A stretch of DNA of 48,233 nucleotides. Source: Chloroflexota bacterium (GTDB lineage: Bacteria > Chloroflexota > Limnocylindria > Limnocylindrales > CSP1-4). The DNA lies in contig JARDZW010000003.1 in NCBI GenBank assembly GCA_029240655.1, positions 1-48,233 of the forward strand, given 5' to 3'. The translations under genes were made by a program, and so were the position numbers. Each line of letters starts with the position of its first letter. The first letter of the stretch is position 1. Shown piece by piece: positions 3,426 through 44,542 of the stretch. The notes beneath the pieces were generated by a model. That model searched no databases. It saw only the letters and a program-made list of their open reading frames with translations, and was not told where the DNA came from.

Positions 3426-3429
3426 TCGG

Positions 3430-3987
3430 ATGCCGGAGCCAACGACCGATACGCCCACCCTGCAGCTGGCCCGCTGGACGGTCACGTCCGGCTCGAACGC
3501 GCGCAGCCGTGGCGCGGTCATCATCGACGCTGGCGACCACCACTGGCGCGCCTCGGCCGAGGGCAACGGCGCGATCGACGCGCTGTTCCGCGCGGTGGAC
3601 CAGGCCCTGTCCGAGATCCTCGACGGCCATCCGCGCCTGCTGGCCTACGACATCCATGCGCTGGGGGAGGGGACCGACACGATCGGCGCGGTGACCGTCC
3701 GAATCGCCCCGCCGGACGCCGCCGGCGAACGGGGCACGGGCGAATACGGCGGCGAGGCCCGAGGCACCAACATCATCGCGGCGTCGATCGAGGCGTACAT
3801 CGTTGCGCTCAACGCGATGCTCGGCGAGGCGCATTGGGAAGGCGCGCCCGAAGCGGCTGCCGCCACCGGGAAGCGTGCCCACGCCAAGGCGCCCGTGACG
3901 GCTGGCGCGGCCCGCGAGCGTCGCGCGGAGCTCGACGAGGAGTCCGGCGAGATCGACACGACCGACTGGTTCAACCGCCAGGGCTGA
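3430..3987 (+). CDS. Free-standing LeuA allosteric/dimerisation-domain protein
   Basis: AEGNGAIDALFRAVDQALSEILDGHPRLLAYDIHALGEGTDTIGAVTVRI...GTNIIAASIEAYIVALNAML aligns by eye with the C-terminal domain of the leuA in this window; no catalytic TIM barrel. ATG at 3430 preferred over the longer ORF that overlaps cimA. Confidence 0.85.
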   Translation: MPEPTTDTPTLQLARWTVTSGSNARSRGAVIIDAGDHHWRASAEGNGAIDALFRAVDQALSEILDGHPRLLAYDIHALGEGTDTIGAVTVRIAPPDAAGERGTGEYGGEARGTNIIAASIEAYIVALNAMLGEAHWEGAPEAAAATGKRAHAKAPVTAGAARERRAELDEESGEIDTTDWFNRQG

Positions 3988-17794: not shown

Positions 17795-18913
17795 ATGCTT
17801 CGTTCGTTCCGGTACGTCGCCCTGATCGCGACAGTGGCGATGGTTCTGTGCGCGTGCGGGTCCGACAGCCCGAGTCGGCAACCGACCGTCCCCTCGGCTC
17901 CGAGCCCCGCTCAGCCGATCGCCAGCGCGTCTGCTGGCATCCCTTCGCCCGGCCCGAGCGCGTCCACGGAGATCGCCCAACGCACGGCGCGCTGGACCAG
18001 ACTCGAGCTCGCCTCTGACCGACCGCCAGCTCGAGAGGGTCACACCTGGACGGTCGATCCCTCGGGCGCGGTCGCGTACCTGTTCGCGGGTCGCGGTGAT
18101 GACGGGTTCCTGGGCGATCTGTGGACGTTCGATATGACTGCGGACGCCTGGGCTCAGCTGGCTCCCGTCGGGCCATCCCCCGCAGCTCGCGCTGGGCATG
18201 TGGCCGCGTGGGTCGACGGCATCGGACTCGTGGCGTTCGGTGGACGCACGGCCGCCGGGATGTCGTCCGAGCTCTGGGCATATGACCCGGAGGCGAACGG
18301 ATGGCGGCTCCTGGCGCCGGGCGACGTCGGTCCACTTGCGCGAGCCGACGCCTGCGGCGTGATCGGTATCGACGGGCGGTTGTGGGTGAGTCACGGCGAG
18401 GACGGCGGCGGCGCCTATCTCGACGACGTGTGGATCTTCGACGCCGCTGACTCCACCTGGTCGGATGTGGATCCCGGCATGCCGGAACCCGCGGCACGGG
18501 CAGGCTCCGCATGCTGGTGGGCCGGTGCCGACGGGCTCATGATCTACGGCGGGCGATCATCGACCGAGGCAGCGCACGACGACGCGTGGTCGCTTGGATC
18601 GGGGTCGGCGGTGAGGTGGGAGGCCGGCCCGACCTTCCCAGTCCCGGGCCGCTCCGACGTGGCGGTCGGCGTTTCGAGTTCCGCGGCATATCTGTTCGGC
18701 GGTGTCGGGCAGGGCGACGCGTTGTTGGGTGACCTGCTCGGCCACGACCTGTCCGACGGCACGACGGAGCGATTCGCGCCAGCGTCCGAGGCACCAGACC
18801 CGCGAGCGGGTGCCTCCCTGGTCGACGATCCGGGTGGCGAGCGAATGCTTCTGTTCGGTGGTCGAGTGGCCACGGGCCCCGTAGACGACGTGTGGTCGGT
18901 CAGCCCGCCCTGA
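17795..18913 (+). CDS. Kelch-repeat lipoprotein
   Basis: Lipobox-like VAMVLCACGSD; repeated AYLFAGRGDDGFLGDLWTFD..., VAFGGRTAAGMSSELWAYD..., MIYGGRSSTEAAHDDAWSL, LLFGGRVATGPVDDVWSV. Confidence 0.85.
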   Translation: MLRSFRYVALIATVAMVLCACGSDSPSRQPTVPSAPSPAQPIASASAGIPSPGPSASTEIAQRTARWTRLELASDRPPAREGHTWTVDPSGAVAYLFAGRGDDGFLGDLWTFDMTADAWAQLAPVGPSPAARAGHVAAWVDGIGLVAFGGRTAAGMSSELWAYDPEANGWRLLAPGDVGPLARADACGVIGIDGRLWVSHGEDGGGAYLDDVWIFDAADSTWSDVDPGMPEPAARAGSACWWAGADGLMIYGGRSSTEAAHDDAWSLGSGSAVRWEAGPTFPVPGRSDVAVGVSSSAAYLFGGVGQGDALLGDLLGHDLSDGTTERFAPASEAPDPRAGASLVDDPGGERMLLFGGRVATGPVDDVWSVSPP

Positions 18914-20474
18914 CGCGCGCAGGAGCGTTCGCGACCCGCGATCCTCGGTCCTGGACGGGTGGCTCGCGACTCTCGCTGAGAGCGGACGATTCGGCGCCGG
19001 TCAGCGGACCCCGCACGCCGAGGTAGGCCGCGGAGCCGGCGAGGGCCAGGATGATCCACATGTAGCGCTCATAGGCGAGGTGGAGAAACATCCCCGTGGT
19101 CAGGTAGGTGAGGAGTGCCACGATGAACGCCGTCGCCATCTGGGCATACTCCGGCGCTCGATCCCGCCATCGCCGGCGAGCTCGCTCGAGGCCGATCAGC
19201 GTCGCGCCGAACACGCCGCTGAACGCCAGGAAGCCGAGCAGCCCCGTCTCCGCCGCCATCCCCGCGAACAGATTGTGCGCCTGCCGAGCCTCGTTCTCAC
19301 TCGCGATGCCGACCTCGTCCGCGTACCGGCCGTAATGCACCGGGAAGAGGCCACGGCCGACGCCGAATACGGGGTTGTCCGCGAAGACGAGCAGGGCTGC
19401 GATCGTCTCGTTCGCGCGCTTGCGGATCGAGCTGTCTTCGGCCTGACTCGCGCCGCGCGTGCCAGTCGCACCGCCGATCGCCTCCAGCGTCGTCAGCCGC
19501 TCGAGGTACGACGGTTGCAGGGTGAACAAGACGGCGACCCCCAGCGCCACAGCGATCAGCTGCGTGGGCTTGATATAGCGGAACACCGTCATCAGCGCGA
19601 TCGCGACCGCGAGACCCAGCGCCGCGCCTCGGGAATACGTGAGCACCGCGCCGAAAGCGGTGACGAGGGTGGCCACGGCCGCGATCCATCGAAGGATCGG
19701 GCGACGCTCTCCCCAGATGCGAAACAGGCCGAGCGGGAGGAGCACGACCATGATCTGCGCGTAGCGGTTCTTCTCCCCGATCGGGCCAGCCAACCGGGGT
19801 TGCCCGTCCTCGTCGAACGTCCCGGTCTCGATCGTCGCGTCGCTGACCTGCGCGAAACCGCCGTAGTCGAAATCGAAGGATCCGGTCACCTGCTGATGGA
19901 TCGAGAGTGCCCCGAGGAGGAAGCCAACCGCGAGCAGGACCCAGACGACCATCCGCAGATCCGCGAGGGACCGGATGGAGTTGGTCACCGCGACATAGAC
20001 CAGCAGGCCTTCCACGACGAATGTGACCAGCATGTCCAGGGCAAGGTCGGGGTCGGCGGCCATCCCGATGACCGTTCCCAGGATCACGACGACGAAGTAG
20101 CCAAGCATGAACGGCAGGCCTGCCGCGATGACGATCGGCTGGCGGCGGACGATGACGTGGTAGGCGAACGGCACGATCAACAGGGCCGGGAAGGCGGCAC
20201 CGGCGAAATAGGGGACGTCGTACCGTTGGACCGCGATCGCGGCTGCGTTGCTGTACAGGATCGCCACGACGATCAGCGTCGCGCGGTCCGGCCGAAGGGC
20301 GACGCCGACGACGGCGACGATCGCGAGCAGGATTCCGACGGTCTGAAGGACGCGTTCGGCACTGACGAACCCGATGGCCACCGCCGCCGCGCATACGAGG
20401 AGGCTTGCGGCGAGCGGGCCGAGGACGAACGGCGCGCCGGGCGACGTGCGCAGCCGGCTCGTGATGGCGGTCAT
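18900..20474 (-). CDS. O-antigen ligase / Wzy-type polymerase family membrane protein
   Basis: Multiple TM segments; LTYSRGAALGLAVAIALM, NPVFGVGRGLFPVHYGRYADEVGIASENEARQAHNLFAGMAAETGLLGFLAF. Confidence 0.88.
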   Translation of the reverse strand: MTAITSRLRTSPGAPFVLGPLAASLLVCAAAVAIGFVSAERVLQTVGILLAIVAVVGVALRPDRATLIVVAILYSNAAAIAVQRYDVPYFAGAAFPALLIVPFAYHVIVRRQPIVIAAGLPFMLGYFVVVILGTVIGMAADPDLALDMLVTFVVEGLLVYVAVTNSIRSLADLRMVVWVLLAVGFLLGALSIHQQVTGSFDFDYGGFAQVSDATIETGTFDEDGQPRLAGPIGEKNRYAQIMVVLLPLGLFRIWGERRPILRWIAAVATLVTAFGAVLTYSRGAALGLAVAIALMTVFRYIKPTQLIAVALGVAVLFTLQPSYLERLTTLEAIGGATGTRGASQAEDSSIRKRANETIAALLVFADNPVFGVGRGLFPVHYGRYADEVGIASENEARQAHNLFAGMAAETGLLGFLAFSGVFGATLIGLERARRRWRDRAPEYAQMATAFIVALLTYLTTGMFLHLAYERYMWIILALAGSAAYLGVRGPLTGAESSALSESREPPVQDRGSRVANAPARVRAG

Positions 20475-21703
20475 GCGATGGCCTCGTCTGGCGCGTCATC
20501 GCGCTCCCCGTCAACCACTCCCGTGGGCTGGAACCGATCATTCGCCGCGGGTTCGAGCGTCCGGCGTGGCTCCCAGCGATCGATCCGCTCCCCGCGTGCC
20601 AGGTTGACCATCGCCCGCACGGCGGCGACGTTGACCATGACGAAGTAGGCTGGGATCGCCAGCGGTGCCTTGCGTCCGACGGGGTGCCCGGCGAGGAGGA
20701 TCCCGGCGCCCGCGAGCCCGTAACAAATGGCCTGTCCGACCGTGGCGATGCGGTAGATGCGCCCCAGGCGCCACGCGAGCGGGCTCACGACGGCCAGCGC
20801 GGCCATGGGCACAACGGCGGTCCGTAGCATGACCTTGTGCCACAGGAGCTGGACCGCGTACCAGCCGGTGCGTCGTGGGTCGAACAGCCGACGCATCAGG
20901 ATGAGGCATCGGAAGGACCGGGTCATGATCCGGACCTTGCGCCGGAATTCCAGCGCGCCCGAAGGGGCGACCGGCTCAAAGGCCAGCGCATCCTCGGCGA
21001 AGACCAGGCGCTGGTCCCCACCGATCACCCGCATCGTGTTCAGCATGTCGTCGCTCACCCCGTCAGGGATCGTGTCGAAGTGGTGTCGTCGTATCGCGTA
21101 GATCGCGCCCGTCGCGCTCGTCACGTTTCCGGCGGCCGACTGCGACCGCTTGAGGAGCCGGTCGAAGTCCCAGTATCCGCGCTCTCCGACGGCGGTGGCG
21201 TCCGCCTCCCCTTCCGGGAGGTAGACCTGGTTGCCCGCCACGCCGCCGACGGTCGAGTCGGCGAATGGCCGGACGAGCGCTCTGATCGCATCGGGAGCGT
21301 ATCGGCTGTTCGCATCGGAGAAGACGAGGATCTCGCCATTCGCCGCCTGAACCGCGGCTTCCAGGGCTGCACCCTTGCCGACCCGGCCCGGAGCGACCAG
21401 ACGAACGTCCTGGCTGCGATAGGCCGCGACGATCTCGTCAGTACCGTCTGTCGACCCGTCAGAGACGATGACGAACTCACGTCGATCCGCGGGGTAATCG
21501 AGCGCGAGAAGATTCTCGATGCGATCGCCGATCACGTCCGCCTCGTTGTACGCCGCGATGATGACGCTTACCGACGGCGTGATGTCCGCACGGGCAAACG
21601 GGCGCGGCCGGAGGCGGGCGCGGAGCACGGTCAGCACCGGCATGCCCGCGTACGTGATCCCGAGGATGGCCGTCGCGAGCCAGAAGATCGAGGTCCTGAT
21701 CAT
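20471..21703 (-). CDS. Family 2-type membrane glycosyltransferase
   Basis: PSVSVIIAAYNEADVIGDRIENLLALDYPADRREFVIVSDGSTDGTDEIV, EILVFSDANSRYAPDAI, C-terminal TM segments. Confidence 0.92.
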   Translation of the reverse strand: MIRTSIFWLATAILGITYAGMPVLTVLRARLRPRPFARADITPSVSVIIAAYNEADVIGDRIENLLALDYPADRREFVIVSDGSTDGTDEIVAAYRSQDVRLVAPGRVGKGAALEAAVQAANGEILVFSDANSRYAPDAIRALVRPFADSTVGGVAGNQVYLPEGEADATAVGERGYWDFDRLLKRSQSAAGNVTSATGAIYAIRRHHFDTIPDGVSDDMLNTMRVIGGDQRLVFAEDALAFEPVAPSGALEFRRKVRIMTRSFRCLILMRRLFDPRRTGWYAVQLLWHKVMLRTAVVPMAALAVVSPLAWRLGRIYRIATVGQAICYGLAGAGILLAGHPVGRKAPLAIPAYFVMVNVAAVRAMVNLARGERIDRWEPRRTLEPAANDRFQPTGVVDGERDDAPDEAIA

Positions 21704-23049
21704 GGTCGCTCGACCGAGACCGATGGTGTCGCGACATCGTTCGACCGGGGGTCGTACGAACGTCGATCGGGATCGGTCACGACGCCCGGGAGCGCGTCGA
21801 TACGGTCCAAGATCGCCCGGGCATTCACGTCGACGTCGAAGTCCGACAGGATGCGTTGACGGGCGGCGGCGCCCATGCGAACGCGAAGGTGCGGATCGTC
21901 CACCAGGCGGCGGATCGCCGCCGCGAGTGCGGTGACGTCTCCGGGGTCGACGAGCAGGCCCGAGACCCCGTCCTCCACGAGCTCTGGGATGCCGGACAGC
22001 CGGCTGGCCACCACCGGAAGCCCACAGCTCATGGCCTCCATGAGGACCACCGGGATGCCCTCGCGCTTGCCGTTCCGGGCGACGACGCTCGGGGCAACGA
22101 GAAGATCGGCTTCCCCGAGCGCAGCGACTACTTCGGACCGGGTCCGTCGGCCATCGAGTGTCACGACGCCACCGAGACCGGCGTCATCGATCTGGGCCCG
22201 GAGCCGCGCCTCATCCTCGCCTTCCCCGATGAACCGGCAGCGGAGGTCCAGCCCCGCGTCCACGAGCAGGCGACATGCGTCGATGAGAACGGACTGGCCC
22301 TTCACCTCATGGAGGGTCCCGATGCCCAGGATCGTGAACGGTCGCGGCGTGGCATCGCGCTCCGGGACGGGTCGAAGGAGCGCCGTGTCGACTCCGCAAT
22401 GGACGACGTGTACGCGCTCGCGCGCCCATTCACCGCACTCCCCCACGATCTCTTCGAGGTTGTCCCTCGAGATGGCGATGACGAACGCGGCCTCGCGGAC
22501 CTTGCGGTCCAGCATGTGGCGATCCACATGGAGGTCCGAACCATGGGCGACGAAACTGAACGGGATGCCAGTCAGGCGGTGGATGATGAAACCCGCGGCG
22601 GCAGGATGATTCGAGAAATGGCAATGGACGTGCCGCACGCCGAGCGATTCCATCTCGTGCGCCATATGGACGACCTTGGGGAAGATCGCCAAACCACCGA
22701 AGAAGTAGTTCGCACTCCCCAGCGTGCCGCGCATCAGGGCCGCCAGCGCGCCAAGGTACGCCCGCGGCCGTCGACGCAGGGCGCGGAGCTGGCTGGCGAT
22801 GATCGCTCGCGAGAGGAACGGCTCGTATCGTGCTCGCTCGACGAGATCGAGCGCCTCGGGATGGCTCACTGACTCGCGATGCCGCAGCAACGGGAATAGT
22901 TCAACGCGCTGCGCCAGCCTCTCGACGGCCAGCAGCTCGAAGAGGATGAACGTCTCCGTCAACTTCGGAAACCGCGACACGACGTAGGCGATCGGCGCCC
23001 GTCGCCGGGTCGGATCGCCCGCCGAGGCGATCGACAGCGGACCGCTCAA
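21700..23049 (-). CDS. Glycosyltransferase family 4
   Basis: YVVSRFPKLTETFILFELLAVERLA, SFVAHGSDLHVDRHML, FTILGIGTLHEVKGQSVLIDACRLL, GKREGIPVVLMEAMSCGLPVVASRLSGIPELVEDGVSGLLVDPGD. Confidence 0.94.
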   Translation of the reverse strand: MSGPLSIASAGDPTRRRAPIAYVVSRFPKLTETFILFELLAVERLAQRVELFPLLRHRESVSHPEALDLVERARYEPFLSRAIIASQLRALRRRPRAYLGALAALMRGTLGSANYFFGGLAIFPKVVHMAHEMESLGVRHVHCHFSNHPAAAGFIIHRLTGIPFSFVAHGSDLHVDRHMLDRKVREAAFVIAISRDNLEEIVGECGEWARERVHVVHCGVDTALLRPVPERDATPRPFTILGIGTLHEVKGQSVLIDACRLLVDAGLDLRCRFIGEGEDEARLRAQIDDAGLGGVVTLDGRRTRSEVVAALGEADLLVAPSVVARNGKREGIPVVLMEAMSCGLPVVASRLSGIPELVEDGVSGLLVDPGDVTALAAAIRRLVDDPHLRVRMGAAARQRILSDFDVDVNARAILDRIDALPGVVTDPDRRSYDPRSNDVATPSVSVERP

Positions 23050-24080
23050 CGCAGCACGCCCGACGGCGTCGCCCCGGGCGACCGCCGCTCGATCGCCGAC
23101 GAGCCGAACCCATCGGGATGGCTGGTGTGCCAGCGCCAGGCGCTTGCGACGATCTCGGCGAGGTCGTGGCGAGGTTCCCAGCCCAGGATGTCCCGAGCCA
23201 GCCGTCCGTCCGCCCAGATGGCGCTCGGGTCACCCGGGCGGCGCGGCCGCTCGCGGGTCTCGATCGGTCGACCGGTCGCGGCCCGTGCGGCGGCCACGAC
23301 ATCGAGCACCGACGCGCCCTGACCCGTCCCGAGGTTCAGTGTTGCTCCCCGCCCCCCACCCATCAGGTACTCGAGTGCCAGCACGTGAGCGTCCGCCAGA
23401 TCCAGGACATGGACGTAGTCGCGGATGGCCGTGCCGTCAGGCGTGGGATAGTCGGTACCGAACACGTCGACGACCGGCGTGCGACCAGCCGCGACCTTCA
23501 TGACGGCCGGAACGAGATTCTCCGCGTTCCGCCAGTCCTCCCCGTTCGAGCCGTCGAGGGCGGCACCGGCCGCGTTGAAGTACCGCAGCGCCGCTGTGCG
23601 GACGCCGTGCGCGCCCTCGAACCAGCCGGCCATGCGCTCCATCAGGTACTTGCTTTCGCCGTAGGGATTCTCCGGGCGGATCGGGCTCGACTCAGCGACC
23701 GGCAGGTCGTCGGGCGTGCCGTACACGGCGCACGTGCTTGACAGCACCAGTCGGCGGACGCCGGTCTCGGCCATCGCTCGGAGTAGGGACAGGCTGCCCG
23801 TGACGTTCATCTCGAAGTAACGGCCGGGATCGGCGACGGACTCGGCGACCGATTTGCTGGCGGCGAAGTGGATCACGGCCTCCGACCGCTGCGCGCGCAG
23901 GATCTCCCCGACGAGCGCGGTGTCGCGGACGTCCCCCACATGGAGGGGCACTTCCGCCACTGCCGCGCGATGTCCATGTTCGAGCGAATCGAGCACGGAC
24001 ACCGTGTGGCCGCCCGCGACGAGACGGCCGACCGTATGCGAGCCGATATACCCCGCACCGCCAGTGACCAGCACACGCAT
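23046..24080 (-). CDS. galE: UDP-glucose 4-epimerase
   Basis: MRVLVTGGAGYIGSHTVGRLVAGGHTVSVLDSLEHGHRAAV, STCAVYGTPDDLPVAESSPIRPENPYGESKYLME, ALRYFNAAGAALDGSNGEDW, RDYVHVLDLADAHVLALEYL. Confidence 0.95.
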   Translation of the reverse strand: MRVLVTGGAGYIGSHTVGRLVAGGHTVSVLDSLEHGHRAAVAEVPLHVGDVRDTALVGEILRAQRSEAVIHFAASKSVAESVADPGRYFEMNVTGSLSLLRAMAETGVRRLVLSSTCAVYGTPDDLPVAESSPIRPENPYGESKYLMERMAGWFEGAHGVRTAALRYFNAAGAALDGSNGEDWRNAENLVPAVMKVAAGRTPVVDVFGTDYPTPDGTAIRDYVHVLDLADAHVLALEYLMGGGRGATLNLGTGQGASVLDVVAAARAATGRPIETRERPRRPGDPSAIWADGRLARDILGWEPRHDLAEIVASAWRWHTSHPDGFGSSAIERRSPGATPSGVLR

Positions 24081-24087
24081 CGCGGGG

Positions 24088-25530
24088 TCAGTCCTGCCGC
24101 TGGTTGGCCCGCGTACGTGCCCGGCTGCGGCGAACCGGCCGGATCGGCTGGGCCTGCATCGTGGTCGCAGGCTGCGCCTGCATCGAGGGGGCGTCCACAC
24201 CGACCGTGGTCGCGGCATGACGAGGATCGGGTTGGCTCGCCTGGGCGTCCTGGCGGAAGCGTCCGCGCGAGCGTGCGTCGAGCACGACGCCAAGGACGGT
24301 CGCACCGACCAGCGTCAGGCTTTCGACCGCATGCGCAAGCGCATCGCGCTTGGTCTGGTCGCGTCGCACGACCACGACCGACGCATCGGTGGCGCGTGCG
24401 TACACGAGCGCCTCCGCCGAGCCCAGCGTGGGAGGACCAGCCACGACGACGAGGTCGTGATCGGCCAGCAGCAGGTCGAGGATGCTCCGGACCGTGCCGT
24501 CATCGAGTCGATCGAGACGCCCATGGCCCACGGGCACGACATGCAACTCCGGCCCGTGCGCGACGATGACATCCGGCAGGGCGACCTGACCTTGGATGAC
24601 CTCGGCCAGACCCGGTCGATCGCGCAGGCCGAGCAGAGCCGAGGCCTCCCCGTCCACGTCGTCGCCGTCGACCAGCACGGTCCGCCGACCACTCGTGGCG
24701 AGCGCGGTCGCAAGGTTGCCCGCGGTCTCGCCCGCACCGTCCCCGGATTGAGCGCCGACGACCAGGAGGCTGGAGACCGGATGCTTGCCGTCGGCGAACA
24801 CGATCTTGGTCGCGACGATCCGATACGAGGAGGCCATGCGCGAAACGGGCATCCGCTCGACCACAAGCCCTCGTTGGGCGTTCGACGACCGGCTTCCTTC
24901 CACCTGGCCGAGGAATGGGACAGGTACGAGGCGACTGACGTCATCACGCGCCCGCACCGTGGCTCCGACGTATTCGATGAGGACCACCACCACGAGCGCG
25001 CCGAGCAGCCCCGCCAGCGCGGTCAGCATCGCGATCAGCGACACCTGCGGTGCGATGGGCGTCGTCGGCGGCTCAGCGAATTCCAGGATCTGGAGCTCAC
25101 CCTCGGGTCGACCGGTCCCCTGCGAGACCAATTCGGTCAGCAACCCCGAGAGCGTGTTGGCGATCTGCGCCGCCCGAGCCGGATCCGCGTCCTGCACGCG
25201 GATGCTCAGTGTCCGGTTCGTGTCGTTGGCGATCACGCGCGTGGCCGCATCGAGCTCGGCGGACGAGGCCTCCAGCCCGAGCCGGGTGATGGCCTCCTCC
25301 AGGCGGGGCCGGACCGTGACCAGCTCGGCGTACGTCAGTGCCAGCTGCCCCGAGGCACGAAGGGTGTTCAGGTCCCCTTCGTACGGCCCGACCAGGAGCT
25401 GTGCGCGAGCCTCATAGGTTGGCGGGATCTGTGTCGCCACGAGGTAGCCCGCGAGTCCGGCGACCCACGTGGCCACAAGCAACGTCCACCACCAACGACG
25501 AGCGGTGGCAAGGTAGCCAGAAAGTTCCAA
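24088..25530 (-). CDS. Wzz/chain-length-determinant protein fused to a degenerate BY-kinase-like domain
   Basis: N-terminal Wzz-like TM and PTYEARAQLLVGPYEG; C-terminal MinD/BY-kinase-like fold (SSLLVVGAQSGDGAGETAGNLATALA, RTVLVDGDD, HDLVVVAGPPTLGSAEALVYARATDASVVVVRRDQTK). Confidence 0.9.
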   Translation of the reverse strand: MELSGYLATARRWWWTLLVATWVAGLAGYLVATQIPPTYEARAQLLVGPYEGDLNTLRASGQLALTYAELVTVRPRLEEAITRLGLEASSAELDAATRVIANDTNRTLSIRVQDADPARAAQIANTLSGLLTELVSQGTGRPEGELQILEFAEPPTTPIAPQVSLIAMLTALAGLLGALVVVVLIEYVGATVRARDDVSRLVPVPFLGQVEGSRSSNAQRGLVVERMPVSRMASSYRIVATKIVFADGKHPVSSLLVVGAQSGDGAGETAGNLATALATSGRRTVLVDGDDVDGEASALLGLRDRPGLAEVIQGQVALPDVIVAHGPELHVVPVGHGRLDRLDDGTVRSILDLLLADHDLVVVAGPPTLGSAEALVYARATDASVVVVRRDQTKRDALAHAVESLTLVGATVLGVVLDARSRGRFRQDAQASQPDPRHAATTVGVDAPSMQAQPATTMQAQPIRPVRRSRARTRANQRQD

Positions 25531-25667
25531 GGGTCAACTCCAGCAGTCGGTCCGGGCCCGTCGCGCATCCGGCCGGCCGGGGGATAGAGGATAGGGGCGC
25601 CGTCCCGACCTGCATAGTCCGGCCGGTTCCCCGACGCACCAGAAGGAGGAGACGGACCGAACGACGA

Positions 25668-29863: not shown

Positions 29864-31506
29864 CAGCTGGCCTCCGCCATCGCCAACGAGGTTTGCCACA
29901 TCGCGACAGCCCGATTGGTCATCAGCCAGCGGATCGCTGCTGGGTCCGAGCCGGACAGTCCCAAGGCCGTCACCAGCCACGCAAGGGACCGCGTCCAGGC
30001 GGCGACCATGAGGGGTGGCACAAGCCGGCCGTCGATGTCCAAGCGGTCGGCCGCGCCAGCCAGGGCTGGCGCGGCCCATCCGCGCGGGTCCCGGACGGCG
30101 TTCGCGAATGCCGATGCCTGGGCTCGTGCTTCGGTCGCACCGTGCTCGGCCGCGGCGACGTACGCCAGCGCGATCGTGAGGTCGTGCAGCGGCAAGCCGT
30201 CCGGCTCTCCCCGTTCCCAATCAACGGCACCCAGTCGCCCGTCCTCGAGGAGGATGAGGTTGGGGTGGGCGGGGTCGCCATGCTCGAACACGACTGGCAA
30301 CTCGACTGCGTCGAGGCTCGTGAGCACCGCCGCAGCCCGGTCGGCCAGCGAGCGCAGCTCCTCGCCAGGGCCTTCGGCGATGGCCCGGATGGTCGTGACC
30401 GCACTGGACAGGCGCTCGCGGACCGGCATGGCACGGCTGGACGCGGGGCCGATGGGCATCTCCTCGAGCAGCCTCTCGATGTGAACGGAGGCCCCTCGCG
30501 CATCGGCCCTGACCATGGGTGGGGAAAGCGGGCGGCCGATGAGCGAGGTCTCGCCGACCGACGGCCACCCACCGTCGAAACCGGTCGTGCCCGTCGGGGC
30601 CGGCCAGCGCCCCTTGGTCGGTGACAACGCAGCTAGTCGAGCCAGGATCGCTCCTTCCCGTGCTGGACCTCGGTCGTCGGGCAGCCGTGCCACCTTGACG
30701 ACCTCGGCGACGTGGCCCGTCGCGCCGTTGATGTGGAGCGCAACGACGTGGGCCGACGCGCGAAAGCCGGGCGTCAGCAGGAGCAAGCCCATTCGGTCAG
30801 CCCCCCGTTCCGGGCCGGAGAACGGCCGTGGACGAGAGGCCCCGTCTGCGGCCCGCTGCGCGATCACCGTGAGCGAAGGAGCCAGCGTCTCAAGGATCCG
30901 CCGCCCAACGCCACTGGCGGCGATGCCACCGGCGATCCGGAGCGGGCCGGACGGGAAGCGTCTTGTCATCAGAGCTCGGATGGCGACCCGGTCGTCGGTG
31001 GCGACCCAGGCAGTTGCGCCGGTCCGTTGGGGCCAAGCCCACCAGATCCGCGTGGCCCAGCCATCGTCGATGAGGGTCCGGGCGATCCGCGCGGCGGCAG
31101 CCGGGATCGATGGACCGTGCCCGCGCAGGAAGGACCGGTCGATCTCCACCACCAGGCGGTCGTGCGGCCCTGCGACGGTCGACGCGGCCGCCACCACGCC
31201 TGGGTCGAAACGCCCGGATACGACGACCGTCTCCCCGTCGACCGCATCGCCGCCGCTGCGATGGACGCCCCCCTCTCGCCGACGCTCATCGAGGATCGCC
31301 CGGTCCAGGGCGGCGGCGAGCTCATCGTCGGGTCGCCCGCCGAGGCCGACGCGTCGGAGCCGCGGGTCGCTGAGCAGGAACCGCCAATCGATGCGCCGCG
31401 CGAGCCGGAGCCGTTCATCACGGGACATCCCGACCATGTCGATCGGTGCATCAGACCCATCCGCGAGACTCACGACCGCGAGCTCAGAGGACACTGCGTG
31501 CGGCAT
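29863..31506 (-). CDS. Large protein with C-terminal APH-type phosphotransferase domain
   Basis: GHVAEVVKVARL (candidate N-lobe Lys), VVFEHGDPAHPNLILLEDGRLGAVDWERGEPDGLPLHDLTIALAYV; about 250-aa N-terminal region unassigned. Confidence 0.82.
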   Translation of the reverse strand: MPHAVSSELAVVSLADGSDAPIDMVGMSRDERLRLARRIDWRFLLSDPRLRRVGLGGRPDDELAAALDRAILDERRREGGVHRSGGDAVDGETVVVSGRFDPGVVAAASTVAGPHDRLVVEIDRSFLRGHGPSIPAAAARIARTLIDDGWATRIWWAWPQRTGATAWVATDDRVAIRALMTRRFPSGPLRIAGGIAASGVGRRILETLAPSLTVIAQRAADGASRPRPFSGPERGADRMGLLLLTPGFRASAHVVALHINGATGHVAEVVKVARLPDDRGPAREGAILARLAALSPTKGRWPAPTGTTGFDGGWPSVGETSLIGRPLSPPMVRADARGASVHIERLLEEMPIGPASSRAMPVRERLSSAVTTIRAIAEGPGEELRSLADRAAAVLTSLDAVELPVVFEHGDPAHPNLILLEDGRLGAVDWERGEPDGLPLHDLTIALAYVAAAEHGATEARAQASAFANAVRDPRGWAAPALAGAADRLDIDGRLVPPLMVAAWTRSLAWLVTALGLSGSDPAAIRWLMTNRAVAMWQTSLAMAEAS

Positions 31507-32593
31507 CGAGGAACGCAGCGAACTCGACTGGATACGGATGGGTGATCACGTGAGCCGGTCGTCCAGCCAGGAAGCTGGCCAAGCGCTCGGCCTGGCGATC
31601 TTCCGCTACGTCGAGCCATGGGTTGGACAGACCGGGGAAGGCAAAGCGGGCTTGCAGATACAGTCCCGCCAGGTCAAGCCGCTCATGGACGAGCGAGGCC
31701 GTCATCCGCTGTGCGACCTCGGCCGGATCGATCGGTTCCACGCTCATCCTGTCGCCGGCGGCGGAGATGACGAACAGGACGTGGTCCACGCGGCCCGTCA
31801 GCGGCGGGAGGGGGCCGAAGAGCCGTTCCGGCGGGAGCTTGACATGACGCTGCGCGTCGATGATCGGGACAGCGCGGCGCAGGAATCGACCCGCTGAAGT
31901 CCGCCTCACGGCCGTGGGCAGCCGTGCCTCTGCGCGGCCAGCGGCCGGGAGGGTCGTCAACTTCAGGCGGTCCAGTCGTCCCAGGCGGGCGCGGACGGTC
32001 GGTAGCTGGTCGAGGTGCCAGTCCCAGAGCCGTATCGGTTCCGGGATGCCGTGCATCGATCCGTCCGCCTTGAGGTAGACCCAACCGTCGCCGATGTATC
32101 GGGCGCCGCTCGTGGTCGCCGCCAGGAGCAGTTCGGACCTGCCGCCCTTGGACCAGCCGGTCACGAGGACGCCCTGGCCGTCGAGCGCGAAGGCACCGGC
32201 GTGGAGCGGCAGTCCTCCGTTGGCCAGGGCGGTCAGATTGACGGTCGCGATGAGGAACGGGATCTCGGCCAGCCCGCGTTGGCAAACGATCTCGCATGGG
32301 CCGCCGATGCGCTCGATCGGGAACCGCACGACGCACCGCTGGTTGCGACTCTTGAGGATGTAGAACGCCTCGTCGGTCCAGCCCGCATCCCTGGCACCGA
32401 TGTAGCGGAGCTGGGATGGCGGCTCGGCCGTGTCCACGAAGCGGATCGTGATGTCTGGCGCGCGGTCGACGATCGTCGGAAGCGGGCCGAGTTGACGACG
32501 AACGACCTGGATGTCGCTCTCCGCCGCGTTCTCGACGCGGACGGTCGCGAGGCCATGCAAGTCGAAATCGACGATACGGGTCCGGACAGTCAT
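31484..32593 (-). CDS. HPr kinase/phosphorylase (HprK)-like protein
   Basis: GGLPLHAGAFALDGQGVLVTGWSKGGRSELLLAATTSGARYIGDGWVYLKADGSMHGIPEPIRLWDWHL resembles the HprK LHG...GDSGxGKSE region. Confidence 0.78.
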   Translation of the reverse strand: MTVRTRIVDFDLHGLATVRVENAAESDIQVVRRQLGPLPTIVDRAPDITIRFVDTAEPPSQLRYIGARDAGWTDEAFYILKSRNQRCVVRFPIERIGGPCEIVCQRGLAEIPFLIATVNLTALANGGLPLHAGAFALDGQGVLVTGWSKGGRSELLLAATTSGARYIGDGWVYLKADGSMHGIPEPIRLWDWHLDQLPTVRARLGRLDRLKLTTLPAAGRAEARLPTAVRRTSAGRFLRRAVPIIDAQRHVKLPPERLFGPLPPLTGRVDHVLFVISAAGDRMSVEPIDPAEVAQRMTASLVHERLDLAGLYLQARFAFPGLSNPWLDVAEDRQAERLASFLAGRPAHVITHPYPVEFAAFLDAARSVL

Positions 32594-34236
32594 GACCCGC
32601 CCTCGACGAGGCGCGCCAGCGTGGATGCCCGCGGACGTTCGAGCATCATGCGGATGAGACGGACGGAATACCCGTCCTGGACTCGTCCGGCTTGCAGGCG
32701 CGTGGATTCCTTGAGGGAACGATGGACCCAGCAGCCGTACAGGAGTGGCTCGATCGCTTCGACCGGTAACCCGACGGAGACCCGATACGCGCCGACGGCG
32801 CGCACGAGACGATCTGCGAGCGGTGAACGGTCGAGCATGTGGCGGGCGGTGCCATCGAGGCGGTCGCGGACCCCCGCTCGGCGGCTGGCAGCCACGGCGT
32901 AACTGCGAAACAGGTAGAGGAGGTCCCAGAGGGGCAGTCCATCGGTTTCCGCCGCCTCCCAGTCCAGGAACATCGTTCGGCCTGCGGGATCGACCAGAAG
33001 ATTCCAAATGCCCGGATCGCCGTGCTGGTTGACGACAGGGAGAGAAGGTCCGAGTCCGCCGAGGCGCTCGAACGTCTGACGCAAGGTGCTGATCTCTTCA
33101 TCGCTCGATCGGTAGATGGCGGCGTAGCGATCAACGAGCGTCAGGAGCGCCTCAGCGACGGCGTCGGCCGGCACCTCACGCCTCGTGGCGGCTCCATACG
33201 CGGTCAGCCACTCCAACGCGTCATCCAGATGTGAGCAGTCCTCGCGCCAGGTCGCGCGCGACGCGAAGGGGATGCCGTCCAGGAGCGATTCGCCGAGCAG
33301 GAACCGTCCGCCATGACGAGCTGCGAACCACGGTCGCGGTACGCGGCCCTCCGCCGCCGGCAGGGACTCCAGTCGAACGAGCGCAGCATGCTCGTTCTCG
33401 AGCCGGCTCGCGTGCTCCGTCGACCGGGTGACCTTGACCACCCCGGTCGGGGCCGGGTCATCCCCGGGTCTGAGCAGGACCAGCACCTTCTGGGAGTCGT
33501 AGTCTCCACGAGCCGCGACGGCCCAACCCCAACCATCGAGGCTTCGACCCGCGGCTGCGGCGGCTTGCGCGATGTACGCCGGCACGCCACCGTCGGCCAG
33601 GACCGATGGGCCGATGATCGTCGCCGTCCTCGTGGGACCGGGCCAGGAAACCTTGATCGATCGCCGGAGGCGTCGTTCGATCGCCGCGAGGCGCGGCCGG
33701 CTGGCGATGGTGCCCGCCAGGCCCATTCGCCCGATGGCGTCCCGCATATCCCGATCCTGGCTGGGCACGGCAGAGCGCACCTCGCCGAGTCGTGGGGTCA
33801 GTGCCAGCGTCAGGGAAGGCTCGTCCGCGGTCGAAGCCGCCGGGGAGCTCGCATCGACCTGGATGACGAGGTCGCCTCGGCGCACGTACGAGACGATCAG
33901 GTCGAACTGCTGTGCGGCGCCGGTCTCGGGCATGTCCGCGACGACCTGGACGCCGACCCACCCCTCGGACCGGGCGCGGGTCTCCAGCTGTCGCCGCCGG
34001 CGCGGGGATCGAACGACCAGCACGACGAGATCCGCCGATCGAACGAGCGTCATCATGGTCGCAGACGATGGGGCCCCCACGCACAGCACCGATCGGTATG
34101 CCAGCCGGGGGAGGCCATACAGCCAGCCCGCCCCGCTGAGCGCACCGCGTCGGTTGCCGCCGACGTCGTATTCGGTCGCCAGCGTCCTCGACAGGACGGA
34201 CGTCGTCTGCGCTGGCTCGATCACGGCCTCAGACAC
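32590..34236 (-). CDS. Second large protein with C-terminal APH-type phosphotransferase domain
   Basis: PTGVVKVTRSTEHASRLENEHAALVRLESLPAAEGRVPRP, VVNQHGDPGIWNLLVDPAGRTMFLDWEAAETDGLPLWDLLYLFRSYAV; GTG start overlaps flippase stop (GTGTCTGA). Confidence 0.82.
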   Translation of the reverse strand: MSEAVIEPAQTTSVLSRTLATEYDVGGNRRGALSGAGWLYGLPRLAYRSVLCVGAPSSATMMTLVRSADLVVLVVRSPRRRRQLETRARSEGWVGVQVVADMPETGAAQQFDLIVSYVRRGDLVIQVDASSPAASTADEPSLTLALTPRLGEVRSAVPSQDRDMRDAIGRMGLAGTIASRPRLAAIERRLRRSIKVSWPGPTRTATIIGPSVLADGGVPAYIAQAAAAAGRSLDGWGWAVAARGDYDSQKVLVLLRPGDDPAPTGVVKVTRSTEHASRLENEHAALVRLESLPAAEGRVPRPWFAARHGGRFLLGESLLDGIPFASRATWREDCSHLDDALEWLTAYGAATRREVPADAVAEALLTLVDRYAAIYRSSDEEISTLRQTFERLGGLGPSLPVVNQHGDPGIWNLLVDPAGRTMFLDWEAAETDGLPLWDLLYLFRSYAVAASRRAGVRDRLDGTARHMLDRSPLADRLVRAVGAYRVSVGLPVEAIEPLLYGCWVHRSLKESTRLQAGRVQDGYSVRLIRMMLERPRASTLARLVEGGS

Positions 34237-35791
34237 CGAATATCCGCCGGCCGAACGGGAGGCGAAGGACCTCAGGGAACATGCCGGCCACGTCGAGCGC
34301 CCGACGGGTGGACACGAGGACGACCGCTGACGCAACCGCCGCCAGCAGCAGACTCGGGACCAGGCTCGGTCGGAACGCCAGCTGGACCGCGCCCATCGCG
34401 ATGGTCGCAAGCGCGATGACCCCATAGACCCACGCGTAGCGTCGATCGAACACGCTGATGCCCGTTCCGCGACGCAGACCGGCCTGCTTGAGCAGATTGA
34501 AGCCGATCAACGCTGTGGCCGTCGCGACCGCGGCTCCCAACGGCCCCCACACCGGGATCAGGGCGAGGTTGAGGACAACGCTGGCTGCGGCGGCGATCAG
34601 GTTGATCGCGACGGTGTAGCGGACGAGGCCGTACACGCGAAGAGTCAGACCATTGAACCCGAGCGCCACGTTCAGATAGGCAGCGAGCGACAGGATGGCG
34701 AGGTACACGGCCGAACCCGCGTAGCGCTCCTCGAAGAGTGCCACGGTGACGGGCTCGGCCACCGACGTCGTCAGCGCAAAGATGGGGAATGAGACCACCG
34801 CCATCCAGATCGCCGTCCGCCAATACAGCTGGGCGACGCCATCGCGTTCGCCACGCGCGAACAGCCGGGATGCTGCCGGGAGAAACAGGATGGTGAAACT
34901 CGAGTAGACGATCAGGTTGAGGTGGACGAGCGGCTGGATGACGCGGTACTCCGCGACTGCCTGCGCCCCCCAGAAGTGTCCGAGGATCAGTGCGTCCGTG
35001 GTCTGGAGCGCGATGTAAACGAGATCGGTCGTCAGGAGCGGGATGGTAAAGACCAGGATCTCCCGTCCCGGGATCAGGGCATCCCGCCACCGCACCGCCG
35101 CCAGGATCCCACGCGCCCGCAGGACGCGCAGGAGCAGCGCACCGTAGAGCAGCACGCCGACCAGGCCGGTCACGACATAGCCCACGGCCAGGAACGCGGC
35201 GCCGAAGTCACCCGCGACGAGCAGCAGCACGACAGCCAATCGAAGTCCTGGTCCGACGACATACTTGCGGACGAAGATCGACCGGGCGTTCGCGAACACG
35301 GCCAGAGCACCGCCGAGCAGGTTGTCCAAGGCCTGGATCGGAGCCAGAACGATCAGGATCGCGAGGAGCGCGGCCGCCTCCGTGTTGGTCACGACCGATC
35401 CGAGCACGGCGTCTCGGAAGCCCACCACGACCAGGATCAGGGCGAGGCCAAGTCCGAGGACCGTGGCAAGGACCATGACGAGCGTGCCCAGGATCCGCCG
35501 GTCATCCCGACGCTCGTCGTACACGGCAAGGAACCGGCCGAGGCCGCGATCCAGTCCGAACGTGACGATCGTCTCGCACAGGGTCACGAGCGATAGCGCG
35601 TAGGCAAAGGCACCGAATTGCGTCTGTGACAGGGACCGCACGATGAGGACCTGGACGAGCAGATTGACGACGAGCGCGATGAGCCGGCCACCAAGGAGGA
35701 GGCTCGATCCACGGATCTGCTTGGTCGTGGCGGTTCCGGACGCAGGGGTCGGCATGCCGACGCTGGCGGTCACATCATCGATGGCGGCCAC
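34229..35791 (-). CDS. Wzx-like polysaccharide flippase (oligosaccharide translocase family)
   Basis: GSSLLLGGRLIALVVNLLVQVLIVRSLSQTQFGAFAYALSLVTLCETIVTFGLDRGLGRFLAVYDE, repeated TM segments, LNLALIPVWGPLGAAVATATALIGFNLLKQ. Confidence 0.92.
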   Translation of the reverse strand: MAAIDDVTASVGMPTPASGTATTKQIRGSSLLLGGRLIALVVNLLVQVLIVRSLSQTQFGAFAYALSLVTLCETIVTFGLDRGLGRFLAVYDERRDDRRILGTLVMVLATVLGLGLALILVVVGFRDAVLGSVVTNTEAAALLAILIVLAPIQALDNLLGGALAVFANARSIFVRKYVVGPGLRLAVVLLLVAGDFGAAFLAVGYVVTGLVGVLLYGALLLRVLRARGILAAVRWRDALIPGREILVFTIPLLTTDLVYIALQTTDALILGHFWGAQAVAEYRVIQPLVHLNLIVYSSFTILFLPAASRLFARGERDGVAQLYWRTAIWMAVVSFPIFALTTSVAEPVTVALFEERYAGSAVYLAILSLAAYLNVALGFNGLTLRVYGLVRYTVAINLIAAAASVVLNLALIPVWGPLGAAVATATALIGFNLLKQAGLRRGTGISVFDRRYAWVYGVIALATIAMGAVQLAFRPSLVPSLLLAAVASAVVLVSTRRALDVAGMFPEVLRLPFGRRIFGV

Positions 35792-35886: not shown

Positions 35887-37185
35887 TCACCGACCTCGAG
35901 CACGACTGGCCAGAGCGTCACCCACCAGTTCCCTCACCTTGTCGGTGACCTCCTCCAAAGAGCCACCAACATCCACGACCACCGCTGACCTGGTGCGAGC
36001 CGCCAGATCCAGGTACCTCCTGCGTTGCTCCTCGATCTGCGCAAGCGGATGCTCCGGCTTGCGGCTGAAGAGGAGGTCCGGGGGTGCGTCCAGGACGATG
36101 ACGAGGTCCGGTGCCGGCAAGGCGTGGGCCAGGATGCCGCGACGCATGCGAGCAAGCCCCCGTGTCGGGCCTCCGAGCCGGGCGTCATAGGGATGCCGAT
36201 CGAAGAGGACCAGCCGGCCGCGCCGTGCGTGCCACCACCCGATGAGCCATCCGCGCCACATGGCCACGAGCCGCGTAGCCGTGCCGAGACCTCGAATGGT
36301 GACCCGCCCATGACCCCGCTGAGCCCCCCGCGATCCTCCACGAGGCCCGCCATAGAGGCCCAGATAGATTCCTCGGGTGGTCATCGGCGCTCCGTCACCG
36401 ACGGTCTTCGCGAGCGAGGACTTGCCGGCGCCGTCCGGACCCAGGAGCGCGACGGTCAGGCCCCGCCTGAGGAAGGGCGGCTCGATGGCAGCGAGGCGAC
36501 GAGCGACCCGCCCGCGGATACGGCCGATGCCGACCGCAAGCGGCGACCGTGCCGTGAGGCCGGCACGAATGCTGTGGGCCAGATCAGCCAGTCCACCGTC
36601 GCCGGCCGACACCATCTCGACGATCCGTTGCGGCGACCAGGCGTCGCTGAGCCCGCGAACGAACCTCGCGCCGTCTCCGTCGATGCGCGCGGACGCCGCC
36701 AGGAGGCGCAGGTTTGCCTGACGCCCGATCCCCCTGAATGGGCGATCCACCAGCTCGTGGAGCAACAAGGTCCAAAACGCGTCGTCCGGGCTCGGCCGTG
36801 CACCGTCCGGACCGTGGACGCGCCGCGCCAGACAGCCTTCAGCCAGGCTCGTGCGCCACTCCTGGAATGGCCCGAGATCGATCCGGGTGACGACGTCGAC
36901 TTTCGCCCAGGCGCCCGTCTCGCGATCGTAAGCAAAGAACGCACGATGAGTGCCGTGGCCAGGCTGTGGACGCTCGTGGAACCCGGCCACGCCGAGCGCG
37001 CGTCGCGCGGCGGGCAGGTCTTCAGGAGCGACCAGCAGGTCGTCCTCGTTGCCCGCACCACGATCACGAAGGCGGAGCCAACGGACATTGGCACGATCAA
37101 GCTCGCTGGACGCCCGGGCGTAGGCGCCAGGTGAGACTGGCGCGGATGCTGGCGTGCTCGGCACCGACGTCGGGATCACACGCAT
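35887..37185 (-). CDS. Nucleotidyltransferase-like domain fused to a thymidylate-kinase-like P-loop kinase
   Basis: N-terminal DLLVAPEDLPAARRALGVAGFHERPQPGHGTHRAFFAYDRETGAWAKVDVVTRIDLG; C-terminal LTVALLGPDGAGKSSLAKTVGDG, GRLVLFDRHPYDARLGG, PDLVIVLDAPPDLLFSRKPEH. Confidence 0.8.
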   Translation of the reverse strand: MRVIPTSVPSTPASAPVSPGAYARASSELDRANVRWLRLRDRGAGNEDDLLVAPEDLPAARRALGVAGFHERPQPGHGTHRAFFAYDRETGAWAKVDVVTRIDLGPFQEWRTSLAEGCLARRVHGPDGARPSPDDAFWTLLLHELVDRPFRGIGRQANLRLLAASARIDGDGARFVRGLSDAWSPQRIVEMVSAGDGGLADLAHSIRAGLTARSPLAVGIGRIRGRVARRLAAIEPPFLRRGLTVALLGPDGAGKSSLAKTVGDGAPMTTRGIYLGLYGGPRGGSRGAQRGHGRVTIRGLGTATRLVAMWRGWLIGWWHARRGRLVLFDRHPYDARLGGPTRGLARMRRGILAHALPAPDLVIVLDAPPDLLFSRKPEHPLAQIEEQRRRYLDLAARTRSAVVVDVGGSLEEVTDKVRELVGDALASRARGR

Positions 37186-37305
37186 CGATAGCCGCAGAAC
37201 AGCACGCCTCCTCCTCGTCCGGCGCCGTCGCTGGCTGGTCCGGAGTCGCGACGATACAATGCCGCGCCACGACAGGCCTGCTGAGGAGTCGAGGAAACCG
37301 ACGAG

Positions 37306-38496
37306 ATGGTCACGCCGACGGGATCGGATCACCCTTCGCCTCTCGCGACAACGGGCCCGACACGACCGCGCCGGCCGCGCTGGCTGTGGGCCGCCGGCCT
37401 GGGCGCCGTTCTGATCGTGGCGCTTGTGCCCGCGCTCCCCGCGTCGACTCCGACCGGCCCGGAACGTACCCCGGGGTCGCCTGGTCCTTCGACCCCGAGT
37501 GATCGCCCAACGACTCGGCAGCCTGGCTACCTGACGGATCCTGTCGGGCTCCGCCAGCGGGCCGGGCTCGCGCGCCAGGGGGTCGAACCGTACGCGTCCG
37601 CGATGGCCGATCTGCTTGATTGGGCGGAGCAGGCGGTCGACCGGTCACCAGACCCCGCCGAACGATTACGGATCAAGGGGACGGAAGGTCCATTCGTAGA
37701 GGACACCGCAGCGGCCTACGGGTTGGCACTGGCCTGGGCGGTGACCGGTGACGACACGTACGCGGAAGCCGCCGCGCGCTTCATCATGGCGTGGGTCGAC
37801 ACGACGGTCTCGACGGAGCGAACGTGTCCGGATGACGGCGCGTGCCAGACGTCTCTGATCATCAGCCGGACGGTCCCCGGTTTCGTCTTCGCGGCGGATC
37901 TCCTCGAAGGGTCGGCTTTCCTGACCGCGGACGAAGAAGAGCGCCTTCGTCGCTGGCTGCGCGACCTGATCCTCCCGACTGCCTCGGAGCTGGACAACAA
38001 CTGGGGTGACGCCGGGACGTTCACACGGATCGTGCTGACCGACTACCTGGGCGATCAAGCCGGGTTCGAGGCGGCGATCGGGAAATGGCGCGAGTTGATG
38101 GACCTCGTCGCAGCCGACGGTCACATACCCGAAGAGGTCGCCCGGGGCCGCGCCGGCCTGGGCTACACCCAGGAGGCGCTCGACTACAAGGTCGCAGCCG
38201 CCGCCATCGCCGACCGCCGTGCCGTGGACCTGTGGAGCTACGTCGGGGCCGAGGGCGGCTCTCTAAAACCCGCCATCGACTACCTTGCAAGGTACATGAC
38301 GGACCACACGGACTGGCCCTGGAGCGAACGCGTTCGGCGTCGCGCCCCGAGCGCCTTCTGGGAGATCGCCTACGCCAAGTGGCAGGAGGCCTCGTATGAG
38401 CCCCTGGTCGCGGAGCGCCGGCCGCACGGTCACGTGGGCCATTCCGCCGTCCGCTGGACCACGCTCACGAACGGCGTGCCGTTCGGCGACCCGTGA
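37306..38496 (+). CDS. Exported alginate-lyase-like protein
   Basis: N-terminal TM (WLWAAGLGAVLIVALVPALP), TAAAYGLALAWAVTGDDTYAEAAARFIMAWVDT, ASELDNNWGDAGTFTRIVLTDYLGDQAGFEAAIGKWR. Confidence 0.82.
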   Translation: MVTPTGSDHPSPLATTGPTRPRRPRWLWAAGLGAVLIVALVPALPASTPTGPERTPGSPGPSTPSDRPTTRQPGYLTDPVGLRQRAGLARQGVEPYASAMADLLDWAEQAVDRSPDPAERLRIKGTEGPFVEDTAAAYGLALAWAVTGDDTYAEAAARFIMAWVDTTVSTERTCPDDGACQTSLIISRTVPGFVFAADLLEGSAFLTADEEERLRRWLRDLILPTASELDNNWGDAGTFTRIVLTDYLGDQAGFEAAIGKWRELMDLVAADGHIPEEVARGRAGLGYTQEALDYKVAAAAIADRRAVDLWSYVGAEGGSLKPAIDYLARYMTDHTDWPWSERVRRRAPSAFWEIAYAKWQEASYEPLVAERRPHGHVGHSAVRWTTLTNGVPFGDP

Positions 38497-43138: not shown

Positions 43139-44542
43139 GTGATTCGCCGATATGTGACGGTGCTTCGCCTTGCCTTGATGGCGGCGGACGCTGCATCGTC
43201 GCTGGTCTTATTTGCCGCGATCTCGACGATCGTTCTTGGCCCTGATTGGCGCGCGGGCTGGGAGCAGAGCACGCAGACCGACGGCATCATCCCGGCCCTC
43301 GCGTATGCGTTGGCCTGGATCAGCGCATCTTGGCTCGTCGGGCTGTATCGCCCTCGTGCGCTCTGGACCATGCTCGGCGACCTGCGCGAGATCGTTCGGC
43401 TGGGAGCCACGGTCGCGTCCGCGACGATCATCGTCATCTTTGCCTTGAACCTCGACGAGGTCAGCCGGCCGCTGATGGTGTCGCTGTTCGTAGCGCAGAT
43501 GGCTGTCACGTTCGTCTCGCGCGTGCTGATCCGGAAGACCTTCGGCTGGCTCCGCATCCGCGGCTACAACACCCGACAGCTGCTCATCCTCGGGACCGGT
43601 GACGCCGCCCAGAACTTCGCCAAGCTCGTCGAGCGCCACCCGGATCTGGGACTCGACATCATCGGCTTCCTGCGGCCGCATGAGCGCGGACCCGTCAGCG
43701 TGGATGGCCCGATCCTTGGGAACCTCGATGATCTGGAGCGGTTGTTCCGCGAAGAGGTCATCGATGAGGTCGCGATCTGCCTCCCGGTCAACGATTGGGA
43801 GTTCATCGATCCAGTGACGGTGCTCTGCCGTGAGGAGGGCAAACCGGTACGGATCCCGTTGGCCGACATCGGGCTGGCCTGGTTCTCCGGCCGGGTGGAA
43901 GACCTCGACGGGATCCCGGTGCTGTCACATATCCACGTCCCAGACCAGGCCCTTGCCATGTTCGCCAAGCGGCTGGTCGACATCGCGCTCTCCACGCTGG
44001 GCCTCATCGTTCTCAGCCCGCTGTTCCTCACCGTCGCAGCCGCGATGATCCTCACGGAGGGCCGGCCGGTCTTCTTCCGACAGGTTCGAGTGGGCCTCCA
44101 CGGACGGAAGTTCACCATGGTCAAGTTCCGCACGATGGTTGCCGACGCGGAGGAGCGCTACGCCGAGGTCGCGGCGATGTCGGACACGCAGGGTGCCGCG
44201 TTCAAGATGACCAACGACCCGCGGATCACGCGCATCGGCGCCTTCCTGCGCAAGACGAGTATCGATGAGCTGCCACAGCTCTGGAACGTCCTGCGCGGCG
44301 AGATGAGCATCGTCGGACCCCGCCCGGCGCCGCCCCGCGAGGTCGCCGAGTACGACCTCTGGCATCGGCGTCGTCTCTCGGTGAAACCGGGGATCACCGG
44401 TCTCTGGCAGGTCGAGGCTCGCATGGACGAGAGCTTCGACCGACGTGCCAGCCTGGATCTCAGCTACATCGACGGCTGGTCGATGTGGCTTGACCTCAAG
44501 ATCATCGTCCGGACCCTCCCGGCGATGCTCCAGGGTCGCTGA
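43139..44542 (+). CDS. Undecaprenyl-phosphate sugar phosphotransferase (priming glycosyltransferase, WbaP/WcaJ-like)
   Basis: [159 protein letters not shown] before GTG. Confidence 0.97.

Follow-up and report, generated by a model that had tools for sequence, protein, structure and literature searches.

In the current model for co-polymerases of the Wzc/CapAB type, cycles of tyrosine phosphorylation are essential; within the bacterial tyrosine kinase (BY-kinase) domain, the EX2RX2R motif mediates ring assembly, and the remaining motifs bind nucleotide and substrate. A BY pseudokinase has been described in Myxococcus xanthus, where EcpK is the partner of EpsV (PMC12004946). Both EcpK/EpsV and the HfsB/HfsA pair of Caulobacter resemble the protein described here: each includes a domain with the BY-kinase fold that lacks Walker A, Walker A′, Walker B and the tyrosine tail, EcpK and HfsB are likewise tied to a Wzx/Wzy pathway, and EcpK shares with our protein a basic C-terminal end (PMC12004946). 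They differ in that EcpK and HfsB are separate, essential proteins of Gram-negative bacteria (PMC12004946), whereas the present domain is fused to a polysaccharide co-polymerase (PCP), belongs to the Chloroflexota and has been lost in one orthologue.

Fused forms are also on record. The passages of that source that deal with them name, after Cuthbertson et al., the fused PCP-2/BY-pseudokinases SMc01795 of S. meliloti and BCETI_6000729 of Brucella ceti, together with Mlr8439 of M. japonicum and VV1_2305 of V. vulnificus (PMC12004946); as described there, all four have the same layout as our protein, but they are proteobacterial, and the likeness is one of description. A PCP-2 that works with a BY pseudokinase, fused forms included, is, then, already published (PMC12004946); what is added here is a Chloroflexota lineage, a tree pointing to ancestral loss, an inverted pattern of constraint, an endpoint of complete loss and at least four independent losses of the Walker lysine among fused BY-kinases of the phylum. 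A search of the literature on polysaccharide co-polymerases in Chloroflexi returned nothing relevant. With Wzc (PCP-2a) and CapAB (PCP-2b) the protein shares homologous Wzz and BY-kinase domains, the Wzz domain being of CapA-like length, but the catalytic motifs, EX2RX2R and the tyrosine tail of those systems are missing; moreover, in contrast to the CapA/CapB pair, the Wzz and kinase-like domains are fused.

The fused gene and its former kinase motifs

The window, namely, the 48,233 nucleotides of contig JARDZW010000003.1 of a Chloroflexota bacterium that were analysed, encodes a Wzz–BY-kinase-like fusion of 480 residues on the minus strand (24088..25530), with a TTG start at 25530, a stop codon at 24088–24090 and a GGAG sequence resembling a ribosome-binding site at 25538–25541, 7 nt upstream of the TTG. 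The short Wzz/PCP domain (residues 1–190; 24961..25530, minus strand) was delineated by Pfam and hydropathy: residues 3–81 match PF02706 with 27.9 bits, above the cut-off of 25.5, and two transmembrane segments lie at about residues 14–34 and 164–187. This is the best-conserved part of the protein. It is followed by a degenerate BY-kinase-like domain (about residues 195–421; 24268..24948, minus strand), within which residues 235–418 match the BY-kinase family model TIGR01007 with 77.6 bits, below the curated cut-off of 108.05. Residues 192–421 align with Staphylococcus aureus CapAB (PDB code: 3bfv) in phmmer with an E-value of 1.6e-19, and Wzc chains also match the fusion protein (E-values of 1e-6 to 1e-11); by homology, the BY-kinase fold is probably retained. 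AlphaFold2 models are of low confidence, being based on two input sequences in all, with pLDDT values of 49 for the whole protein and 40 for the kinase part.

The initial annotation regarded this gene as an apparent pseudokinase, and the motifs and coordinates that it quoted are correct letter for letter, the strand being minus. The former Walker A motif, GDGAGETAGNLA (residues 263–274; 24709..24744, minus strand), stands opposite GAGKSTIAANLA of CapAB in the phmmer alignment, which bears out the reported replacement of the Walker A lysine by alanine (Ala266; 24733–24735) and of the following serine by glycine, and adds a Thr-to-Glu change; where an active BY-kinase has GxGK[S/T], the protein reads GDGAGE. 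Similarly, the former Walker B motif, LVVVAGPP (residues 360–367; 24430..24453, minus strand), aligns with FVIIDTPP of CapAB, and its aspartate has indeed become alanine (Ala364; 24439–24441). The losses go further than those first reported. The former Walker A′ motif, LVDGDDV (24655..24675, minus strand), retains both aspartates, but the arginine of DxDxR is gone; the former EX2RX2R ring motif reads SSYRIVA (24811..24831, minus strand); the NPAELL signature is absent from the domain; and the asparagine of VLNR has been lost (VLDA). Intact homologues of the family read GEGKTTTAANLA, DADLRKP, VIIDSPP, EAYRTLR and LGVxLNR where the fusion protein reads GDGAGETAGNLA, DGDDVDG, VVVAGPP, SSYRIVA and LGVVLDA, and they carry a YYYYDYY cluster. 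The C-terminal tail (residues 422–480; 24091..24267, minus strand) was also rightly described as free of tyrosine: its 59 residues include none, against 2–7 in most homologues of the family, and comprise 11 arginines and 4 Asp/Glu residues. Thus, neither an intact DxDxR, nor the Walker B aspartate, nor EX2RX2R, nor a tyrosine cluster is present, and the assignment of the protein as a BY pseudokinase that has lost all the hallmarks of catalysis is well supported by sequence. Because both Walker A′ aspartates are kept, it may nevertheless bind nucleotide without catalysis.

Orthologues, ancestry and constraint

Nine orthologous loci were compared, drawn from two families of one Chloroflexota class and comprising eight dead forms and one that is kinase-less. 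Those outside the window include orthologues from four other genera of its family (L002–L005; 35–51% identical) and from the other of the two families (L061, L062 and L064). An intact GK[S/T] in orthologues would have pointed to an isolated mutation or an error; it was looked for and is absent from all nine loci, whereas, in the phylum, 48 related fusion proteins have it. None of the complete orthologues keeps the Walker B aspartate; L061 and L062 stop at contig ends, before this motif, and a second contig of the G165 genome, which we take to continue L062, carries what appears to be the missing C-terminal half, reading MVVISAGPV and free of tyrosine. Among the dead orthologues, L004 is exceptional in having a longer tail with scattered tyrosines. 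The sequence GDG[ASV]GE is common to three members of the dead clade, and a glutamate occupies the former second threonine position in six of the eight dead forms, across both families; these are derived states.

A tree calculated without the motif columns places the eight dead forms and the kinase-less one in a single clade (support 100/99); one loss, therefore, explains them all. On the evidence of this tree, the loss of the kinase is ancestral to the window's clade, and the pseudokinase assignment extends to its relatives as an inherited state. Sequencing error or chance is ruled out by the orthologues lacking GK[S/T], by their separate assemblies and by their distribution over two families.

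The two halves of the protein have diverged very differently. Across the five full-length dead orthologues of the window's family, identity between pairs averages 0.53 for Wzz but 0.31 for the kinase part, which is the lower of the two in all 10 pairs (mean kinase/Wzz ratio 0.58). The intact homologues of the family show the inverse: 0.50 for Wzz and 0.59 for the kinase part (0.56 without the Walker motifs), with the kinase part the more similar in 96 of 105 pairs and a ratio of about 1.1–1.2. At matched Wzz identity (0.38–0.62), the kinase part without its motifs averages 0.31 in the dead forms versus 0.55 in the intact ones; the pairs are not independent, but the dead and intact distributions barely overlap. 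From this we infer that the dead domain is under weaker constraint than active kinases. It is, however, not simply junk, because its reading frame is open and some core residues are invariant: the five full-length sequences of the family all have Arg283, Asp288, Arg395 and Glu403. Indeed, the frame is open in all orthologues except one, suggesting that some function of the domain remains.

The exception, L031 in genome G123, is a Wzz-only protein of 224 residues with a GTG start, which stops a little beyond the second transmembrane segment. Its gene occupies the same slot, between those for the deacetylase and a GT4 glycosyltransferase; there is no room beside it for a separate kinase gene, as the next gene starts ∼30 bases on, and a genome search of G123 found no BY-kinase above cut-off. 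The degenerate kinase domain can, thus, be lost entirely. In this respect, the G123 protein resembles Wzz/PCP-1, which controls chain length without a kinase domain, but sequence and history place its Wzz domain in the kinase-fused lineage.

The polysaccharide cluster and the function of the dead domain

The fusion gene lies in a minus-strand cluster, in which the genes run in the order thymidylate-kinase-like protein, Wzx candidate, APH-family protein, HprK-related protein, second APH-family protein, glycosyltransferase, ATP-grasp protein, deacetylase and dead PCP, and then GalE, GT4, GT2 and Wzy candidate. The preceding gene encodes a polysaccharide deacetylase (PF01522; 25668..26717, minus strand) and adjoins the PCP gene in most orthologous loci; the next, for a GalE-type epimerase (23046..24082, minus strand), has an ATG a few bases past the stop codon of the fusion gene, the open reading frame as listed beginning upstream at 24305, and is syntenic in L042, L043 and L044. 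Beyond these lie the GT4 (21700..23049) and GT2 (20471..21703) glycosyltransferases and a syntenic Wzy_C/O-antigen ligase family protein that is the candidate polymerase (18900..20474), all on the minus strand. A Wzx-type flippase candidate (PF01943) is encoded at 34229..35791 on the minus strand, and an initiating phosphoglycosyl transferase (PF02397, and above the cut-off for TIGR03025) at 43139..44542 on the plus strand; the protein, therefore, combines the Wzz domain and two transmembrane segments expected of a PCP with a setting that includes Wzx, Wzy and an initiating enzyme. L042, L043 and L044 share the order deacetylase–PCP–GalE–GT4–GT2–Wzy, which is partly preserved in L041, L045, L111 and L113 as well. 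At the eight loci of the same family that carry an intact BY-kinase (L103–L110), the surroundings gave no close matches to the cluster genes.

Several neighbours have features of their own. Two phosphotransferase-like genes of the APH family (PF01636; 29863–31506 and 32590–34425, minus strand) were not detected in the orthologous clusters. The thymidylate-kinase-like protein (35887–37332, minus strand), with the P-loop GPDGAGKSS, has a C-terminal half that is conserved in three orthologous clusters and an N-terminal part with a weak likeness to nucleotidyltransferases. An alginate-lyase family gene (PF05426; 37306–38496, plus strand) adjoins the cluster, hinting that the polymer contains uronic acid. 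The HprK-related P-loop protein (31484..33007, minus strand; weak matches to FomB and HprK_rel_A) probably starts well inside its listed open reading frame; its P-loop reads GGRS in the window, but GGKS, GGKT or GAGKT in L045, L042 and L044. By family, none of these kinase-like neighbours (the two APH proteins, the HprK-related and the thymidylate-kinase-like ones) is a tyrosine kinase.

We consider it likely, reasoning from homology and gene context, that the protein is a fused PCP-2a co-polymerase of a Wzx/Wzy-type pathway, the kinase being dead and the Wzz domain working without a phosphorylation cycle. The membrane and extracellular part of Wzz would still set polymer length, forming a ring with the polymerase; this ring would function without the autophosphorylation cycle that drives the assembly and disassembly of Wzc/CapAB rings, and the leftover cytoplasmic domain would be a passive scaffold or oligomer stabilizer at most. 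The initial annotation had proposed just such a catalytically dead scaffold, and this agrees with the work on EcpK and HfsB (PMC12004946), but the rapid divergence of the domain in this lineage and its deletion from one orthologue leave it, at most, the role of an accessory scaffold. A stronger version, in which the dead domain has taken on a defined new role, whether as an essential scaffold like EcpK or as a non-catalytic sensor of nucleotide or of a partner, is possible, although we doubt it. The derived glutamate shared across two families, the GDGxGE sequence of three orthologues, the four invariant residues and the basic tails, as published for EcpK (PMC12004946), would all fit recruitment; however, two orthologues lack the glutamate, the domain changes faster than active kinases do, and in one orthologue the kinase domain is missing altogether.

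The initial annotation also raised the alternative of kinase input from the neighbouring block, and action in trans by another kinase, be it a canonical BY-kinase elsewhere or one of the HprK-related, thymidylate-kinase-like and APH-family proteins of the cluster, seems improbable. Since the acceptor tail is gone, here and in most orthologues, trans-phosphorylation is unlikely, and no BY-kinase above the TIGR01007 cut-off was found in the six genomes of the family that carry the cluster, which are drafts of 72–92% completeness (window genome 71.5%), so that a separate kinase might have escaped assembly: the next best hits there are shorter, MinD/ParA-like matches, whereas three genomes with an intact BY-kinase score 186–202 bits in the same search. 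A canonical BY-kinase does accompany the dead one in two genomes of the second family. Moreover, strong matches to the HprK-related gene coincide exactly with the six genomes of the family that have a dead or kinase-less PCP, three weaker ones lying elsewhere, but shared membership of the cluster would alone predict this co-occurrence, the window's copy has GGRS in place of GGKS, and the other neighbours belong to families of small-molecule kinases. More improbable still is a kinase or ATPase that has stayed active in a deviant form, by way of a relocated lysine or an unusual P-loop: the Walker A′ aspartates are kept and three lysines are left in the domain, but none of these lies in or near the former P-loop of the window protein, no alternative lysine at the P-loop is common to the orthologues, the Walker B aspartate and the VLN asparagine have gone as well, and the related loci L003–L005 show further decay. 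Least credible of all is a decaying pseudogene or an error of sequencing or assembly; the kinase part does diverge fast, but frames are open in independent assemblies, the Wzz part is 43–61% identical to those of the other full-length orthologues of the family, and the same state is found throughout the clade. A missing phosphatase, considered as a sign of lost phospho-cycling, was rejected: low-molecular-weight phosphatase genes are similarly numerous in dead and intact genomes, and the window genome carries one elsewhere.

Lysine-less kinases elsewhere in the phylum

Further fused BY-kinases without the Walker lysine occur in the phylum, in at least three groups outside the window's clade: the seven proteins L114–L120 (family f46), L122–L124 with L128, L125, and L136, L143, L146 and L153, in which arginine replaces the lysine. 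The search profile was built from dead kinases and so favours degenerate sequences, and the counts of dead kinases give no frequency for the phylum. In the tree without motif columns, the state of the Walker lysine changes at least four times, four of the changes being forced by well-supported branches; a join of only 50/86 links the window's clade to the f46 proteins, and the two may or may not go back to a single loss. Some of the lysine-less kinases keep Walker B and EX2RX2R, as if they were earlier stages of loss.

We offer only tentatively the wider proposal that the Chloroflexota have repeatedly abandoned tyrosine phosphorylation of the PCP, with dead fused forms arising at least four times and one lineage going on to delete the domain, and that the HprK-related protein has perhaps taken over regulation here. 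If true, this would amount, within one homologous family, to a natural gradation that runs from active kinases to the absence of any. A kinase that is dead and then gone, with the membrane part and the cluster conserved, is natural evidence that the phosphorylation cycle can be dispensable, and it extends to the Chloroflexota the idea of a phosphorylation-independent PCP-2, so far argued from Gram-negative bacteria.

In automated annotation, genes of this kind may receive the label 'tyrosine autokinase', and for them that name is probably wrong. Elsewhere in the window, a stand-alone LeuA allosteric/dimerization domain is encoded on the plus strand (3352–3987), directly after a LeuA/CimA-like gene (1740–3425) that already has an allosteric/dimerization domain of its own.
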